DNA of 64,000 nt from Mucilaginibacter ginkgonis (lineage in GTDB: Bacteria; Bacteroidota; Bacteroidia; Sphingobacteriales; Sphingobacteriaceae). The stretch is taken from the NCBI RefSeq assembly GCF_009754905.2, contig NZ_CP066775.1:2108001-2172000 (forward strand), written 5' to 3'. The notes beneath the pieces are model-generated. The model searched no databases. It was not told the DNA's origin and saw only the letters and a list, made by a program, of their open reading frames with translations. Shown here one piece after another: positions 3,445 to 60,700 of the stretch. The position numbers were made by a program, and so were the translations under genes. Position 1 is the stretch's first letter. Each line of letters opens with the position of its first letter.

Positions 3445-4299
3445 CTACCGCACCCAAAGCCTGTCTGCTAAAAAAAGTACCGCGAAAACAACGCTTGCAA
3501 TACCGTTAGTGGTCATGAAGGCGAAGTTTACCCTACTAAGATCATTCGGCTTAACAAGGCTATGCTGATAGACGAGCATACTACAAAACACCACGATCCC
3601 AACATAATACGCCGGCCCCACCTGAATTACCAGTACAGGCAAAATAATGAATATGGCAGATAGCACATGCAAGAACGACGATAACCGCAGCGCATTCACT
3701 TTACCCATTTTTGCGGGGATGGAATGCAGGTTTTCCCCACGGTCAAAGTCTTCATCCTGTAAAGCGTAGATCACATCAAAGCCGCTTACCCAGCAAAGCA
3801 CAGCAAGCGAGAAGAATAGTGGTGGCAGGTCAAATTTCCCGGTCACCACCAGGTAGGCCCCTATAGGTGCCAAAGACAAACCTAATCCTAAAACCAAATG
3901 ACAAAGAAAGGTAAACCGTTTGGTGGCACTGTAACCTAATACTACCAGAAGCGCCACAGGGGCCAGGTAAAGACACAGCGGATTAATATACCAGGTAGTT
4001 ATTAAAAAGAACAGGCAATTAACGATGGTAAATGTCAAAGCCGCCCGCGGACTTATTCTTCCCGACGGTATATCACGCACTTTGGTACGCGGGTTTTTAG
4101 CATCAATGTCCCTATCCAGAAAACGGTTAAATGCCATTGCCGAATTACGAGCAAACACCATACACAGTACCATCAGCAGCAACTTCTGCCATGAAAATAT
4201 AGCATTGGTTGTTGTTACCGCCAGAAAGAAGCCAATAAAGGCAAACGGCATGGCAAATATGGTATGCGAAAATGTCACTAAAGAGAAGTATTTTTTCAT
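3445..4299 (-). CDS. UbiA-family polyprenyltransferase
   Basis: 284 aa, polytopic (about 8-9 helices). The first Asp-rich prenyl-diphosphate motif is NRFLDRDID at residues 58-66, followed by KNPRT; the second is in YALQDEDFDRGE around residue 180. These are the Mg-binding sites of UbiA prenyltransferases, which attach a polyprenyl chain to an aromatic ring in quinone synthesis. The NPRTxxRxIPxG form is the 4-hydroxybenzoate or MqnP-like type rather than MenA, but the acceptor is not certain. A decayed DUF559 reading frame on the same strand ends over its start codon (ATGA overlap). Confidence 0.88.
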   Translation of the reverse strand: MKKYFSLVTFSHTIFAMPFAFIGFFLAVTTTNAIFSWQKLLLMVLCMVFARNSAMAFNRFLDRDIDAKNPRTKVRDIPSGRISPRAALTFTIVNCLFFLITTWYINPLCLYLAPVALLVVLGYSATKRFTFLCHLVLGLGLSLAPIGAYLVVTGKFDLPPLFFSLAVLCWVSGFDVIYALQDEDFDRGENLHSIPAKMGKVNALRLSSFLHVLSAIFIILPVLVIQVGPAYYVGIVVFCSMLVYQHSLVKPNDLSRVNFAFMTTNGIASVVFAVLFLADRLWVR

Positions 4300-4719
4300 G
4301 TATAAGTTAAGTTCCCTTCATGAGAGGGGTTAGGGGTATGTTTATAAGATTGATGTCCTAAAATGTAAGTTTCAATAGTTCTTATAACATTGTCTATATC
4401 ATCTCGAACCTCTGACTCGTCAAATCTCATGATGATTAGATTATGTTCTCGCAGAAGCGCATCACGCAAATTATCCTCATTATATTTTTCTTCAGAACCA
4501 TGATAGCGACCATCCAATTCGATTACCAAATCTAATTCATTACAATAAAAATCGACAATGTAATCTAATAATGGCTTTTGCCTGTGAAAATCAAATCCAT
4601 AATTGCTTTCCGCTTAAATGTTTCCACAGTAAGATCTCTCCCGGCGTGCTATCATTCCTAAGTTTTCTGGCGAGCACTTTGAGACGATGATCGTATGGAA
4701 TGATTTTTCTCAATTTCAA
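4296..4719 (-). pseudogene. Frameshifted DUF559 (Vsr-like) endonuclease, element copy B-I
   Basis: Read from a TTG at 4719, the minus strand gives KIIPYDHRLKVLARKLRND, then TPGEILLWKHL, and then hits a one-base frameshift near 4600-4606. The next frame continues with YGFDFHRQKPLLDYIVDFYC, DLVIELDGRYH and IIMRFDESEV. Together these are a near-complete DUF559 domain, with the D of the VDF motif and the E-L-D of VIELDG as expected active-site residues of the PD-(D/E)XK fold. The C-terminus (KHTPNPSHEGNL) is encoded by a family B palindrome, and the stop overlaps the ubiA-like start. The frameshift means no intact protein. More AT-rich than its neighbours. Confidence 0.8.
4311..4360. repeat. Family B palindrome B1, 3' side of the DUF559 pseudogene
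   Basis: TTCATGAGAGGGGTTAGGGG followed by TATGTTTATAAGATTGATGTCCTA. It is in the same orientation as, and homologous over about 50 bp to, B3 at 4801-4850, including the flank GTATCCTA. It encodes the last residues of the pseudogene. Confidence 0.75.
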
Positions 4720-4732
4720 CTATCGCTTTAAA

Positions 4733-4850
4733 TAACACACCCCTGCCAACGCACTGCCTCGTACACCCCCTCTCAAGAGGGGATAAATCTCAATTGCTTA
4801 CTTCCCCTCTTGAGAGGGGTTAGGGGTGTGTTTGTAAGTTTGGTATCCTA
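4733..4850. repeat. Family B inverted palindrome pair B2/B3
   Basis: Left arm: ACACACCCCTGCCAACGCAC, then CCCCCTCTCAAGAGGGG. A 19-bp spacer follows, then right arm CCCCTCTTGAGAGGGGTTAG and GGGTGTGTTTGTAAG. CCCCTCTCAAGAGGGG is almost a perfect palindrome by itself and the arms together can form a long cruciform. It sits directly 5' of the DUF559 pseudogene. Confidence 0.8.
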
Positions 4851-4957
4851 AGCTTTTTCTTTAAATGCTTTCATAGTCTTTACCCTCATGCTGTAATGTT
4901 GTTCTGCAGACGCTTAGCTAAAGGTTTAATTTAGAATTGTATGGTATAATTCTTCTT
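4848..4957 (-). pseudogene. Severely decayed DUF559 N-terminal remnant, element copy B-II
   Basis: On the minus strand, in shifting frames, one can read RRIIPYNSKLNL, then LAKRLQNNITA, stop codons, and KHLKKKL. This matches KIIPYDHRLKVLARKLRND, NDSTPG and WKHLSGK of copy B-I. After this the sequence jumps straight to the 3' flank (TTAGGATACCAAACTTACAAACAC), which matches the end of B-I. I read it as an internal-deletion derivative of the same element. The matches are short. Confidence 0.6.
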
Positions 4958-4983
4958 AAATAAATAATATCACACGGCCTAAT

Positions 4984-5093
4984 ATACACACTCCTGACAA
5001 CGCACGGCCCGACACTCCCCCTCTAAGAGGGGACGAATTTCGACAGCCATATCTCCCATCTTGAGAAAGAAATTAGGGGTGTGTTTGTAAGTT
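4984..5093. repeat. Family B inverted palindrome pair B4/B5, degenerate
   Basis: Same layout as B2/B3: ACACTCCTGACAACGCACGG, CCCCCTCTAAGAGGGG, spacer, then CATCTTGAGAAAGAAATTAG and GGGTGTGTTTGTAAG. The right arm has lost most of its palindrome. It runs up to the stop codon of engB, so the stretch 4720-5091 is wholly accounted for by repeat-element sequence. Confidence 0.7.
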
Positions 5094-5733
5094 AGTCTTC
5101 GTTAAACGGAAAGTTTTGATTATTCGCATCAATTCCTTCAAACCTGCTGTTAACCTCGTCTATGAAACCCAACACCTCGTCGCGGCCGAGTTTATTTTCA
5201 GACGACGTGATAAAGTACTGCGGCATTTCATCGAAGGTTTTGGTAAGTGCCTTTTTAAACTGGGCAACGTTCTGATCTGTTTTTACACTTGATTGCTTAT
5301 CGGCCTTGGTAAATACAATAACGAACGGCAGGCCTTTTTCGCCTAACCAATTGCAAAATTCTAAGTCGATTTTCTGTGGTTCTAAGCGGCTGTCTATCAA
5401 TACCAAAACACATTGCAAACTCTCCCGTTTGTCGAGATAAAAACGGATAAACTTATTCCAGTCTTCCTTTTTGCTTTTAGATATGCGTGCATAACCGTAA
5501 CCGGGCAAATCAACCAGGAACCAATCGTCATTTATTAAAAAGTGATTGATGAGTTGCGTTTTACCCGGTGTTTGCGATGTTTTAGCCAAGCCCTTTTTAG
5601 CCGTCAGCATGTTGATCAACGATGACTTACCCACATTAGAGCGGCCTATGAAAGCATATTCGGGCTTAGTTGGCGGCGGCAGTTTTGAAACCTGCGTATT
5701 ACTGCATATAAATTCTGCCGACTTTACGATCAT
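5092..5733 (-). CDS. engB: EngB/YihA ribosome biogenesis GTP-binding protein
   Basis: 213 aa. TRAFAC GTPase motifs: G1 GRSNVGKSS near residues 31-39, G3 DLPGYGYA near 74-81, G4 TKAD near 142-145, and SSEN as G5. Known EngB/YsxC/YihA proteins assist late assembly of the 50S subunit and are usually essential. Start ATG at 5733. Its stop codon lies at the edge of a family B repeat, so the repeat has extended to the very end of the gene without disturbing it. Confidence 0.95.
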   Translation of the reverse strand: MIVKSAEFICSNTQVSKLPPPTKPEYAFIGRSNVGKSSLINMLTAKKGLAKTSQTPGKTQLINHFLINDDWFLVDLPGYGYARISKSKKEDWNKFIRFYLDKRESLQCVLVLIDSRLEPQKIDLEFCNWLGEKGLPFVIVFTKADKQSSVKTDQNVAQFKKALTKTFDEMPQYFITSSENKLGRDEVLGFIDEVNSRFEGIDANNQNFPFNED

Positions 5734-5844
5734 GCTGCAAAGTTATACTTTTTGTAATTATCGATGCCTTTGTACAGATTTAACACGCAGGCAATGGTGT
5801 ACAAAAATAAAAAATCTATTTTTATATGTTTAAACATTTAAGCG

Positions 5845-6333
5845 ATGGCTAAGTATAAAATTCCTGCTCAAACGCGTATTGGACATGTGCACCTAAAGGT
5901 TGCCGATTTGCAGCGTTCAATAGATTTCTATTGCGGATTACTTGGTTTTGAACTTCAGCTCATGTATGGCGATTCTGCAGCTTTTATTTCTGCCGGTGGT
6001 TATCACCACCACATTGGCTTGAATACATGGCACAGCAAAAATTCTCCGCCCGCGCCTGAGCAATATCCCGGCTTATATCACACGGCTATTTTATATCCCG
6101 GGCGCAAAGATCTGGCTGCCATATTTAAGAGGCTGGCCGACGCCGGGTACCCTTTCACCGGCGCATCTGACCACGGCGTATCTGAAGCTTTGTACCTCAA
6201 TGACCCGGATGGTAATGGCGTTGAATTATATTGGGACCGCCCCAAAGATCAATGGCCAACGGATGAGCATGGCAACTTAACCATGTTTACGCGGAGGCTA
6301 AACATTGAGGATTTATTAAAAGAATTGGATTAG
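5845..6333 (+). CDS. VOC/glyoxalase-fold protein (catechol dioxygenase-like)
   Basis: 162 aa. Two beta-alpha-beta-beta-beta modules typical of the vicinal oxygen chelate superfamily: HVHLKVADLQRSIDFYCGLL at the start and LYLNDPDGNGVELYWDRP near the end. Candidate metal ligands are His14, the HHHIG cluster (about residues 55-57), the YHTAI His and the Glu of GVELYWD. Resembles CatE-type extradiol dioxygenase-like proteins; the substrate is unknown. Converges with kup, the 3' ends overlapping by four bases. Confidence 0.85.
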   Translation: MAKYKIPAQTRIGHVHLKVADLQRSIDFYCGLLGFELQLMYGDSAAFISAGGYHHHIGLNTWHSKNSPPAPEQYPGLYHTAILYPGRKDLAAIFKRLADAGYPFTGASDHGVSEALYLNDPDGNGVELYWDRPKDQWPTDEHGNLTMFTRRLNIEDLLKELD

Positions 6334-40820: not shown

Positions 40821-40853
40821 CTCCTCTCTTTTGGATAGGGTTGGGGTGAGGTT
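40821..40853. repeat. Family A palindrome A1, degenerate
   Basis: CTCCTCTCTTTTGGATAGGG then TTGGGGTGAGGTT. The loop differs from the consensus, but the GGTTGGGGTGAGG arm is exact. Confidence 0.75.
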
Positions 40854-40855
40854 AC

Positions 40856-40886
40856 AAAAAAAGCCACCCGTAAACGAGTGGCTTTT
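40856..40886. terminator. Terminator of the str operon (after rpsJ)
   Basis: AAAAAAAGCCACCCGTAAAC GAGTGGCTTTT. Read on the minus strand it gives AAAAGCCACTCGTTTACGGG then TGGCTTTTTTT, about 50-80 nt after the rpsJ stop, so the operon ends here and does not run on to rplC. Confidence 0.88.
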
Positions 40887-40894
40887 ATAATTTT

Positions 40895-40930
40895 CACCTC
40901 CCTCTCCTTCGGAGAGGGCCGGAGTGAGGC
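40895..40930. repeat. Family A palindrome A2
   Basis: CACCTCCCTCTCCTTCGGAG then AGGGCCGGAGTGAGGC. CCCTCTCCTTCGGAGAGGG is a near-perfect hairpin. It lies in the 3' untranslated part of rpsJ. Confidence 0.8.
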
Positions 40931-57756: not shown

Positions 57757-60700
57757 ATGGAGAACGTTCCTGCTTATAGTCCTGTACACAAAGTCCGTTT
57801 TGTAACCGCTGCCTCACTTTTTGACGGTCACGATGCTACCATAAACATCATGCGCCGCATACTGCAGTCTACCGGGGCCGAGGTGATCCATCTGGGGCAT
57901 AACCGATCTGTGGACGAGGTGGTGAATTGCGCTATCCAGGAAGATGTACAAGGCATCGCGTTGACGTCTTACCAGGGCGGGCACATCGAATACTTTAAGT
58001 ACATGTATGATTTGCTGCAGCAACGCGGCGCGGGGCATATCAAAATATTTGGCGGCGGCGGCGGCGTGTTTCTGCCACAAGAGATAGATGAGTTACAGGA
58101 ATACGGTATCGCGAAGATCTACTCTCCCGACGATGGCCGCCGTATGGGTTTGCAAGGTATGATCAATCACATGATGCAGATCTGCGATTTTGAAACTAAA
58201 ACTGTGCTGAATGGCGAGTTAAAGCACCTACCGAAAAAAGATCCAAAGGCTATTGCGCAGTTAATTACACTGGCAGAGAACCACCCGGAACAATTCATCT
58301 CTCCCCCCGCCCTCTCCAAAGGAGAGGGAGCTATCCCTGTACTTGGCATTACCGGCACAGGCGGCGCGGGTAAATCATCATTGGTGGATGAATTTGTACG
58401 CCGCTTTTTGGCCGAAACAGATAAAACACTGGCCATTATCTCGGTCGACCCGTCTAAACGCAAAACAGGCGGCGCGCTTTTAGGCGACCGTATCCGCATG
58501 AACGCTATAAACAATCCCCGCATTTATATGCGTTCGCTGGCGACAAGGCAGGCAAATCTGGCTTTATCGGGATATGTGCAGGAATCGATAGATATTTGCA
58601 AAGCCGCGGGTTATGATCTCATTATAGTCGAGACATCCGGCATTGGACAAAGCGATACCATGATCACCGATTATTGCGATGTATCGCTATACGTGATGAC
58701 GCCGGAATTCGGGGCAGCAACCCAGCTTGAAAAAATAGACATGCTGGATTTCGCGGATGTAGTGGCGATCAACAAATTTGACAAACGCGGCGCATTGGAT
58801 GCTATCCGTGATGTTCGCCGTCAGTATAAACGCAACCATCAGCTTTTCGACGCTAGTGACGACGCCATGCCGGTTTTCGGCACTATGGCTTCGCAGTTTA
58901 ACGACCCGGGGATGAACAGCTTATATACCGTTTTGATGGATACCATCAAAACAAAAACCGGTGTCGACTTTAAACCGAACATTCCGCAGGAAAACATACA
59001 GCAGGAAAAGACTTACATCATTACGCCGGATAGGATCCGCTATTTGGCAGAGATTGCCGAGAGCAGTGTTGCTTATGACGCCTGGGTAAATGAGCAGTGT
59101 AAAATTGCGCAGCAAATGTTCCAGGTTAAGGGTGCAATAGGCCTTGTTGAAGGACACACCCCTGTTCCCTCTCAAGAGGGGATTAAAAGTGGGCTTGAAG
59201 AAATTTATCAGCACCTGGAAGATCATTTGCATGCCGATTGCAAACGCTTATTAAAGGAATGGCCCGAAACCGTTGCCAAATACCAGGCTGAAGATTTTGT
59301 ATATAAAGTGCGCGACAAGGAAATACGTCAGCCGCTTACTACTACTTCACTGTCCCAATTACGTATACCAAAAATTGCCTTACCGAAATACGAAGCCTGG
59401 GGCGATATTTTGCGTTGGTTACTGACAGAAAATTTGCCGGGCGAGTTCCCGTACGCGGCGGGCGTATTCCCGCTAAAGCGGGAAGGCGAAGACCCTACGC
59501 GAATGTTTGCAGGTGAAGGCGGACCCGAACGTACAAATAAACGTTTTCACTACGTATCGATGGGGCAGCCGGCGCACAGGTTGTCTACAGCTTTCGACTC
59601 GGTGACGCTTTATGGCGAAGACCCGCACATTCGCCCCGACATTTACGGCAAGATCGGCAACTCGGGTGTGAGCATAGCTACGCTGGACGACGCCAAAAAA
59701 CTGTATTCGGGTTTCGATCTGTGCAGCCCGTCTACTTCTGTGTCCATGACGATTAACGGTCCTGCGCCCATGCTGCTTGGCTTTTTTATGAACGCCGCCA
59801 TTGACCAGCAATGCGAAAAATACATCATTGAACACAAGCTTGAGCATGTGGTTGAAGCGAAATTTAAAGAGGTTTATGACGATAAGGGATTGCAAAGGCC
59901 GGGGTATGAAGCCTCACCCCAATCCTCTCCAGAGCATACAGAGGTTGACGGTTTGCCTCAATCTGTTGCCTCATCCCAGACCTCTCCAGAGAATGCAGAG
60001 GTTGACGGTATGCCTCAATCTGTTGCCTCACCCCAACCCTCTCCAAAGGAGAGGGAGTTCGAAAACGAAAATAATTTTGGTTATAAAACCGCTGATTTAA
60101 AGATTTGGGAGGCACTAAAGGCAAATTCAAAAGCTAACAGGCAGTCACAAACGGAAACGGAGAATATCTTGTGGCAACTGTTACGAGATAGCAAAACAGG
60201 TTTTAAAATTCGTCGGCAGCATGCGATTGATGGCTACATCGCTGACTTTGTCTGCTTAGGAAAAGGATTGGTAATTGAGGTAGATGGTGGTTATCACCTC
60301 GAAACTGGAGAACAAGATGCAATTCGTACAGCCATTCTAAACTATGAAGGCTTTGATGTTATTCGCTTTACAGATCTGGAAGTCTTAAATGACCCTGATG
60401 GCGTAGTATCAAAAATAAAAAGGCGACTTGGATCACAACCCGACAGAATCACCAACAATGAAGAGAAAGCCCTCTCCTTTGGAGAGGGTTGGGGTGAGGC
60501 CAAAAATGGAGAACATTTGGGTGAGGCAAATTTAAATCAGCACATAAAAGCCCTCTCCTTTGGAGAGGGTTTGGGTGAGGCTGTCACTCTCCCCCCCGGC
60601 AACAACGGACTTGGTCTGATGTTGCTGGGCTTAACCGGCGACCAGGTTTTACCTGCAGATGTGTACGCTAAAATTAAAGCCTACGCTATATCAAATGTTC

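Follow-up and report, generated by a model that had tools for sequence, protein, structure and literature searches.

Bacterial genomes commonly contain short palindromic repeats, for some families of which no mobilising enzyme is known, and in Rickettsia palindromic elements are tolerated in frame inside proteins. The homing endonucleases of the EDxHD/Vsr-like type, I-Bth0305I among them, have a catalytic motif which we take to be made up of E, D, H and D residues. According to PMC9403480 a DUF559 gene has already been assigned to the EDxHD homing endonuclease family, and the Caulobacter DUF559 protein VsrA was proposed to be a Vsr-like mismatch repair nuclease (PMC12907096). In the REPIN/RAYT systems, as described in PMC3116915, a gene with hairpin repeats on its flanks is accompanied by dispersed non-autonomous copies of these repeats, and the repeat family and the gene lineage are coupled; PMC3733652 names the CGTC repeats as a family for which no mobilising enzyme is known. 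MITEs with an IS partner retain terminal inverted repeats, the gene having been lost via internal deletion.

The locus described here lies in the soil bacterium Mucilaginibacter ginkgonis between the housekeeping genes engB and ubiA, in a stretch of 64,000 nucleotides (the window). We consider it probable that it is the relic of a homing-endonuclease-driven, REPIN-like element of about 0.45 kb, whose cutting and movement we infer. Like the EDxHD/Vsr-like homing endonucleases, the DUF559 gene shows site-bound presence and absence in relatives, but it has palindromic inverted ends of its own and leaves palindromic derivatives. Unlike intron- or intein-borne homing genes, the window element is intergenic; a structured RNA or intron around the gene was rejected, since no Rfam family matched positions 3900-5600 at the gathering score (best E 0.072, unrelated). 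The element shares with REPINs and RAYTs the hairpin-flanked gene, the dispersed non-autonomous repeats and the coupling of the two, but its gene encodes a Vsr-type nuclease and not a Y1 transposase, and the repeat units in the own genome are mostly single, with three inverted pairs. The retained terminal inverted repeats and the loss of the gene via internal deletion are as in MITEs; however, there is no classical transposase, and IS-type target duplications were rejected, none of at least 4 nt being found in 31 clade B and D elements (control fraction 0.004). Unlike in Rickettsia, a nuclease-bearing full form is present here at the same in-frame site (icmF). The nuclease family and the REP/REPIN biology are thus of known kinds, while the literature searches found no account of their union, in which a nuclease replaces the RAYT and the element can reside in frame: the titles and abstract beginnings returned by full-text searches, the coverage of which omits most subscription papers, contained no link between DUF559 and palindromes.

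The features of the locus are collected in Table 1. Read on the minus strand from the engB stop codon (5092) to the ubiA ATG (4299), they follow each other in the order R, L, N-terminal DUF559 remnant, R, L, frameshifted DUF559 gene, R, so that the palindrome array, spanning 4312 to about 5091, holds three R ends and two L ends. An R end is ACACACCCCTAACCCCTCTCAAGAGGGGAA or a near variant. An L end starts with the palindrome TTCCCCTCTTGAGAGGGG and closes, after at most about 20 more bases, with AGGGGTGTGT. Since L opens with the palindrome of R and terminates in AGGGGTGTGT, the two are mutually inverted copies, that is, inverted repeats from one palindrome family (B). A repeat search of 3500-6000 returned a direct repeat of 65 nt (4312-4376 and 4802-4866, 78%), the 21-nt tail of which recurs a third time at 5073-5093, and a fully complementary palindrome pair of 17 nt (4767-4783/4803-4819). 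Folded as single-stranded DNA, the inner R-L stretch reached a z of -8.05 against shuffles, while the outer, more decayed one (4970-5093) folded no better than its shuffles (z -0.25). At 4296-4299 the downstream frame of the DUF559 relic, having crossed the R palindrome, ends in a stop that forms an ATGA overlap with the ubiA start codon; reading through the R palindrome occurs in 8 of 22 clade-B genes and is not general.

Table 1. Features of the engB-ubiA locus and the solo palindrome in icmF (positions in the window)
Feature	Position	Strand	Evidence
engB/ysxC-type GTPase gene, left neighbour	5092..5733	-	213-aa ORF; PF01926 E 6.4e-21; adjoins ubiA in 62/80 relatives
R end of third, outermost unit, decayed hairpin	5053..5091	-	21-nt tail copied exactly at 5073-5093
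L end of remnant unit	4986..5033	-	17-nt family D3 copy at 5025-5041; layout as in L ends of relatives (by eye)
N-terminal remnant of DUF559-B gene	4855..4955	-	nhmmer E 9.3e-5, profile positions 14-115
R end of remnant unit, plus strand TTCCCCTCTTGAGAGGGGTTAGGGGTGTGT	4802..4831	-	0 mismatches to B pattern
L end of DUF559 unit	4735..4783	-	inverted repeat with 4803-4819, 17 nt, 100%
Frameshifted DUF559-B gene	4346..4713	-	PF04480; nhmmer 2.8e-77; ORF 4296-4529; start by eye TTG at 4713
R end of DUF559 unit	4312..4341	-	78% to 4802 copy over 65 nt; 3 mismatches to B pattern
ubiA-type prenyltransferase gene, right neighbour	3445..4299	-	284-aa ORF; 80 relatives retained, 79-84% identity
Solo B-like palindrome in icmF, translated HTPVPSQEG	59154..59183	+	second variable IcmF stretch; L209 has HTPNPSQEG there

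The first-pass annotation had placed a frameshifted DUF559 gene between family B palindromes, and this was confirmed. The 77-aa C-terminal frame of the relic matched PF04480 with E 4.3e-8, a genome search gave the same family at G000:C1:2112368-2112640 (E 9.6e-20, 72 bits against a curated cut-off of 20.6, one internal stop), and a clade-B DNA profile built from other genomes matched 4709-4346 on the minus strand with E 2.8e-77; the frame is broken by a short indel near 4600. The second unit, said to retain only the N-terminal coding end and the 3' flank, does so: the same profile matched 4955-4855 (minus) at positions 14-115 only (E 9.3e-5), and about 100 bases of the N-terminal end are followed by a jump to the 3' flank. 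The palindromes, flanks and order are common to both units, as had been described, with the same L/R order and the 65-nt repeat at 78%. Similarity between the units, on which the annotation was to stand or fall, is borne out by this repeat but not by the coding remnant, which scored 22 against the first copy when the palindromes were excluded, a value reached by 92 of 1000 shuffles and not significant. Therefore the claim of a remnant rests on the profile and the shared order.

From these units the annotation had concluded repeated insertion followed by internal deletion. The deletion in one unit stands; the two insertions do not follow, since tandem duplication explains the units equally well. 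Either a tandem duplication with subsequent internal deletion or a second insertion next to a resident copy may have produced the two units; whole mini-units in tandem are seen by eye at engB-ubiA of L078. An intact copy elsewhere in the genome was sought, and none of clade B was found. The own genome (a single contig of 3,697,784 bases) has three DUF559 genes, namely the relic and two open-frame ones of another clade, one internal to icmF (window 60115-60429) and one toward the truB end (G000:C1:1930140-1930454). The two dead clade-B copies are a minor member of the wider union of DUF559 genes and palindromes.

The DUF559 protein was modelled in the form of its unbroken orthologue, that of L079 from Mucilaginibacter sp. 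X5P1, with an alignment of 40 DUF559 domains. The AlphaFold model (mean pLDDT 86.6) matched 3hrl, an endonuclease-like protein, with Z 15.4, the catalytic domain of I-Bth0305I (3r3p) with Z 11.3, Vsr (1cw0) with Z 9.5 and a mitoribosomal chain with Z 9.2; Foldseek gave E 5.5e-4 against 3r3p_A. The sequence profile found 3hrl (E 3.3e-31) and 3r3p (E 6.3e-6) in the PDB. As judged from the model, the DUF559-B protein is predicted to share its fold with Vsr and with the homing endonuclease I-Bth0305I. Thirteen columns are invariant among the 40 sequences, including E27, D56, E67, D69 and D82, and H73 is nearly so. When aligned to 3r3p with HMMER, E67 and D82 stand opposite E and D, but the other two aspartates, D56 and D69, stand opposite A and N and do not line up with those of I-Bth0305I. 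A defence function was set aside, the PADLOC matches being weak (best E 9.1e-6) and falling on methyl-directed, homing and Dpd-type nucleases. The median dN/dS was 0.09-0.16 across the five DUF559 clades, with dS near saturation and computable for 37/253, 4/55, 5/78, 9/45 and 30/153 pairs; by these sequence comparisons the unbroken genes of all five clades look to be under purifying selection.

In order to follow the site in relatives, 80 of these, mostly named Mucilaginibacter, were retained through ubiA. The comparison was made on the 62 loci in which engB adjoins ubiA, the other 18 being set aside, including L059, whose DUF559-B gene does adjoin ubiA. By the patterns used, 14 of the 62 junctions have a DUF559-B gene (one of these 'full' genes, that of L083, is truncated), 11 have palindromes only and 37 have neither, the last class including L116 and L098, in which partial palindromes are visible by eye. 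The sites empty of gene and palindrome that the annotation had suggested looking for were thus found, within the reach of these patterns. Seventeen of the 62 junctions are just 0-16 nt long, and no palindrome is present in any of these except L116. In L071, L073, L065 and L106 a different repeat was seen by eye upstream of ubiA, in the engB-ubiA gap; it consists of GTCATTGCGAGGAACGAAGCAATC and its inverse and resembles REPs of the CGTC type.

On a host tree of EngB and UbiA, with the window as the fifteenth full row, the full and not-full states require 14 changes, at least 10 of which are forced by starred branches, and the presence of DUF559 shows no clustering beyond that of shuffled labels (387 of 500 were as low). 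The distances between the DUF559 genes follow those between the host genes (Mantel r 0.65, n=14; 1 of 2000 permutations as high), and for 147 of 153 pairs the similarity of the DUF559 gene does not exceed that of both host genes. In the pair L079/L187, 9 of 454 sites differ in the element, as against 104 of 1492 sites of the genes on either side (p 1.7e-5); this pair was tested as the most alike of the 153, and five other close pairs gave p values of 0.056 to 1.0. Its identity hump is as would be expected after a recent transfer of the element alone, and this one pair is an indirect hint of copying into an unoccupied site. Given the host-like divergence and the one picked pair, repeated loss may explain most of the pattern. 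The engB-ubiA element is read as a long-term occupant of one site that has often been lost and sometimes regained. Since the same clade sits at engB-ubiA in 14 of the 62 relatives and diverges there in step with the host genes, the copy in the window has most likely been resident for long and has since decayed. The insertion site is not incidental.

A purely vertical history would require one ancient insertion in the ancestor of the genus and many losses and decays, without homing, the nuclease now being bound to its locus. The Mantel correlation, the parallel between DUF559 and host identity in most pairs, and the partial palindrome remaining in L116, which by eye resembles a deletion and belongs to the sister of the full L105, all agree with it. 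For engB-ubiA alone, vertical descent with loss is the strongest rival. The identity hump of L079/L187 and the 17 short junctions, free of palindromes except in L116, argue against it, and so does the occurrence of clade B, with the same ends, at other sites. When 99 DUF559 domains were placed in a tree, 8 genes from other sites grouped with the 19 from engB-ubiA (the window included) in one clade with support 91, not starred; the tree has 109 columns, and 45 of its 96 inner branches are open. It omits the weak L188-L190, the short piece L191 at 1759, and L144, L151, L163, L168, L173 and L177, judged to be repeats of named genomes; seven weak matches in the genus and a good part of those beyond it lie outside the set, and L181 and L146 sit at contig ends. 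At the site occupied in L157/L146, a search up to 700 nt from the gene found no B hairpin in any of the relatives that have a full-length homologue (16 of 16); there the upstream gene abuts the downstream one, and its end can be made out by eye in each of the 16, with a tblastn match in 6. In a genome from another family of the class, the DUF559 gene is closest to clade B (63%, as against at most 56% for the other rows outside clade B), has B ends and lies at yet another site. These other sites are unexplained by vertical descent, and as an account of the whole we regard the vertical history as rather unlikely.

Residence inside genes was observed as well. In a set of 60 genomes that includes the own one, 132 DUF559 matches were obtained, and 44 of them fall within open frames of at least 250 aa (counted by eye; three are weak, E ~1e-4). 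Nine hosts of in-frame elements were identified with Pfam and by reading: IcmF, which we take to be methylmalonyl-CoA mutase, TruB, HisF, two leucyl-tRNA synthetases and the Lhr helicase, and outside the genus RecJ, methionine synthase and HsdR. A Pfam scan (E up to 1e-8) found no intein in these nine. In the window itself, 55 kb away from the engB-ubiA relic, a DUF559 gene of another clade lies with its own palindromes (CCTCACCCCAACCCTCTCC.../...GGAGAGGGTTGGGGTGAGG) in frame inside icmF (59912-60580), in an open frame of 1350 aa. Among 35 rows compared at this icmF site, 11 (from 9 genomes) have 160-226 additional residues, 2 have a scar, 20 have a linker of 2-5 residues and 2 are others; the scars, of 12 or 25 residues, are read as palindromes. 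A second variable stretch of IcmF contains solo palindromes in frame, that of the own genome being of the B type. Because of the in-frame cases in icmF and the other hosts, the engB-ubiA relic can be taken as one instance of a wider habit. Separately, in L040, L044, L045, L137, L138, L154 and others the HisF frame downstream of hisA begins with a fused DUF559, which has ends of the CCCCCTAAAGGGGG type; this hisA-hisF clade has 12 genes, some of them broken.

Each of the five DUF559 clades has its own palindromic ends. Among the flanks listed, palindromic inverted ends were also seen in clade D (intergenic), clade E (intergenic), the hisA-hisF clade and the icmF/leuS/truB/lhr clade. The upstream flank was aligned locally with the reverse-complemented downstream flank for 84 of the 99 tree rows (the window, L181, whose flank is too short, and 13 out-of-genus rows being left out). 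As controls, 249 pairs were taken from the same loci; their 95th percentile was exceeded by 74 of the 84 elements and their highest score (67) by 16, while 10 did not pass the percentile. The flanks alone identified the DUF559 clade in 76 of the 84 and assigned 8 wrongly. Of 36 genus genomes, 16 have a DUF559-B gene, whether intact or broken, and 13 of these contain B palindromes, as against 7 of the 20 that lack the gene (Fisher p 0.008). Three of the 16 lack a B palindrome at 3 mismatches, and G006, G009 (58% complete) and G015 have 5-9 B palindromes with the DUF559-B match absent. In a second linkage test, 6 of the 12 genus genomes that have a D-clade gene contained D palindromes, as against 3 of the 24 that lack one (p 0.036). 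The D palindrome is present 33 times in G030 and 33 times in G012 when up to 3 mismatches are allowed; since in G030 no clade-D DUF559 is among the placed matches, the palindromes may outlive the nuclease.

In the own genome the B palindrome gave 15 matches at up to 3 mismatches, two within the array and 13 outside it, with no control matches. Because both B copies are dead here, the 13 outside would now be orphans. With a shorter pattern, 15 loci were found outside the array, of which 10 are single hairpins and three are inverted pairs (L008, L019, L020). In relatives, gene-less mini-units with both ends stand beside a full unit, for example in L078, L094 and L100 (by eye); in these, and in the three own-genome pairs, the terminal inverted repeats are retained. 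The analogy with MITEs drawn in the first-pass annotation therefore holds for the gene-less derivatives but not for the usual IS partner, given the missing target duplications and a nuclease that is Vsr-type and not a DDE or Y1 transposase. Elsewhere in the window, at 40822-40929, two family A palindromes start 78 bases apart, with 3 and 4 mismatches to CCCTCTCCTTTGGAGAGGGTTGGGGTGAGG.

It could be argued that a Y1 (RAYT) transposase moves the palindromes, these being REP/REPIN repeats, and that DUF559 merely travels along or serves the cell as a Vsr-like repair gene, as proposed for the Caulobacter VsrA (PMC12907096). The B units are indeed REP-like, with a hairpin and a tail in about 30 nt, 10 of the 15 own-genome loci being single hairpins and 14 of the 15 lying under no frame longer than 144 aa, and there are two weak Y1 matches in the own genome. 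However, palindromes of the families B, A, D, H and E are absent from both Y1 loci (at 4 mismatches, in 2.5-2.6 kb around each), and on this ground a RAYT partner was rejected; the palindrome family tracks the DUF559 clade in 76 of 84 elements; and neither GTAG nor CGTC, the tags as defined in PMC3733652, stands at the hairpin foot of TTCCCCTCTTGAGAGGGGTTAGGGGTGTGT and the B units. This explanation is improbable. That the palindromes are transcription terminators or mRNA stabilisers downstream of genes, beside DUF559 by chance, is hardly credible: several solo units do stand soon after stop codons in the own genome (by eye) and the inner R-L stretch folds very stably, but chance flanking by terminators or REPs is disfavoured by the flank test (74 of 84), the ends are clade-specific, and solo palindromes occur in frame inside icmF.

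The reading as a homing-like element is preferred because of the site fidelity, the three-state polymorphism, the missing target duplications and the fold. The anatomy of the locus, the coupling of clade and palindrome, the full, scar and empty states, the occurrence at other sites, the purifying selection and the absence of target duplications form its direct basis. The intact element would consist of one Vsr-type nuclease gene (DUF559, clade B) between palindromic, mutually inverted L and R ends. The nuclease would cut or nick unoccupied target sites or the hairpins of its own ends, and the element would be copied in through recombination; such homing-like copying would account for both the site fidelity and the missing target duplications. 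Internal deletion of the gene would give rise to L-R mini-units and single ends, that is, to REP/MITE-like palindromes, and these could be moved in trans by an intact nuclease. Against homing stand the mostly host-like divergence, the single clear transfer signal and the two aspartates misaligned with I-Bth0305I.

On a wider scale, we hold the chances to be evenly balanced that the class of DUF559 genes as a whole provides the autonomous partners of REP-like palindromes in Bacteroidota, with nuclease-driven, splicing-free homing, invasion in frame or at junctions, palindromic scars left in frame, and dispersed palindromes moved in trans. On that reading, icmF, leuS, truB, hisF and lhr, and outside the genus recJ, metH and hsdR, would be putative in-frame targets and engB-ubiA a junction target, and ends that are palindromic and translatable would let the element enter conserved genes in frame.

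If a Vsr/EDxHD-type nuclease moves some palindrome families, it becomes possible to test how such repeats originate, and the family known mainly as DUF559 gains a role. Residence in frame in housekeeping enzymes without splicing would be a second route, beside inteins, by which a selfish gene settles in a host gene that is needed. The full, scar and absent states at one spot hint at a little-described route for the spread of short repeats. In the window the end stage, a dead nuclease with orphan palindromes, is seen together with an open-frame relative inside icmF, 55 kb off.
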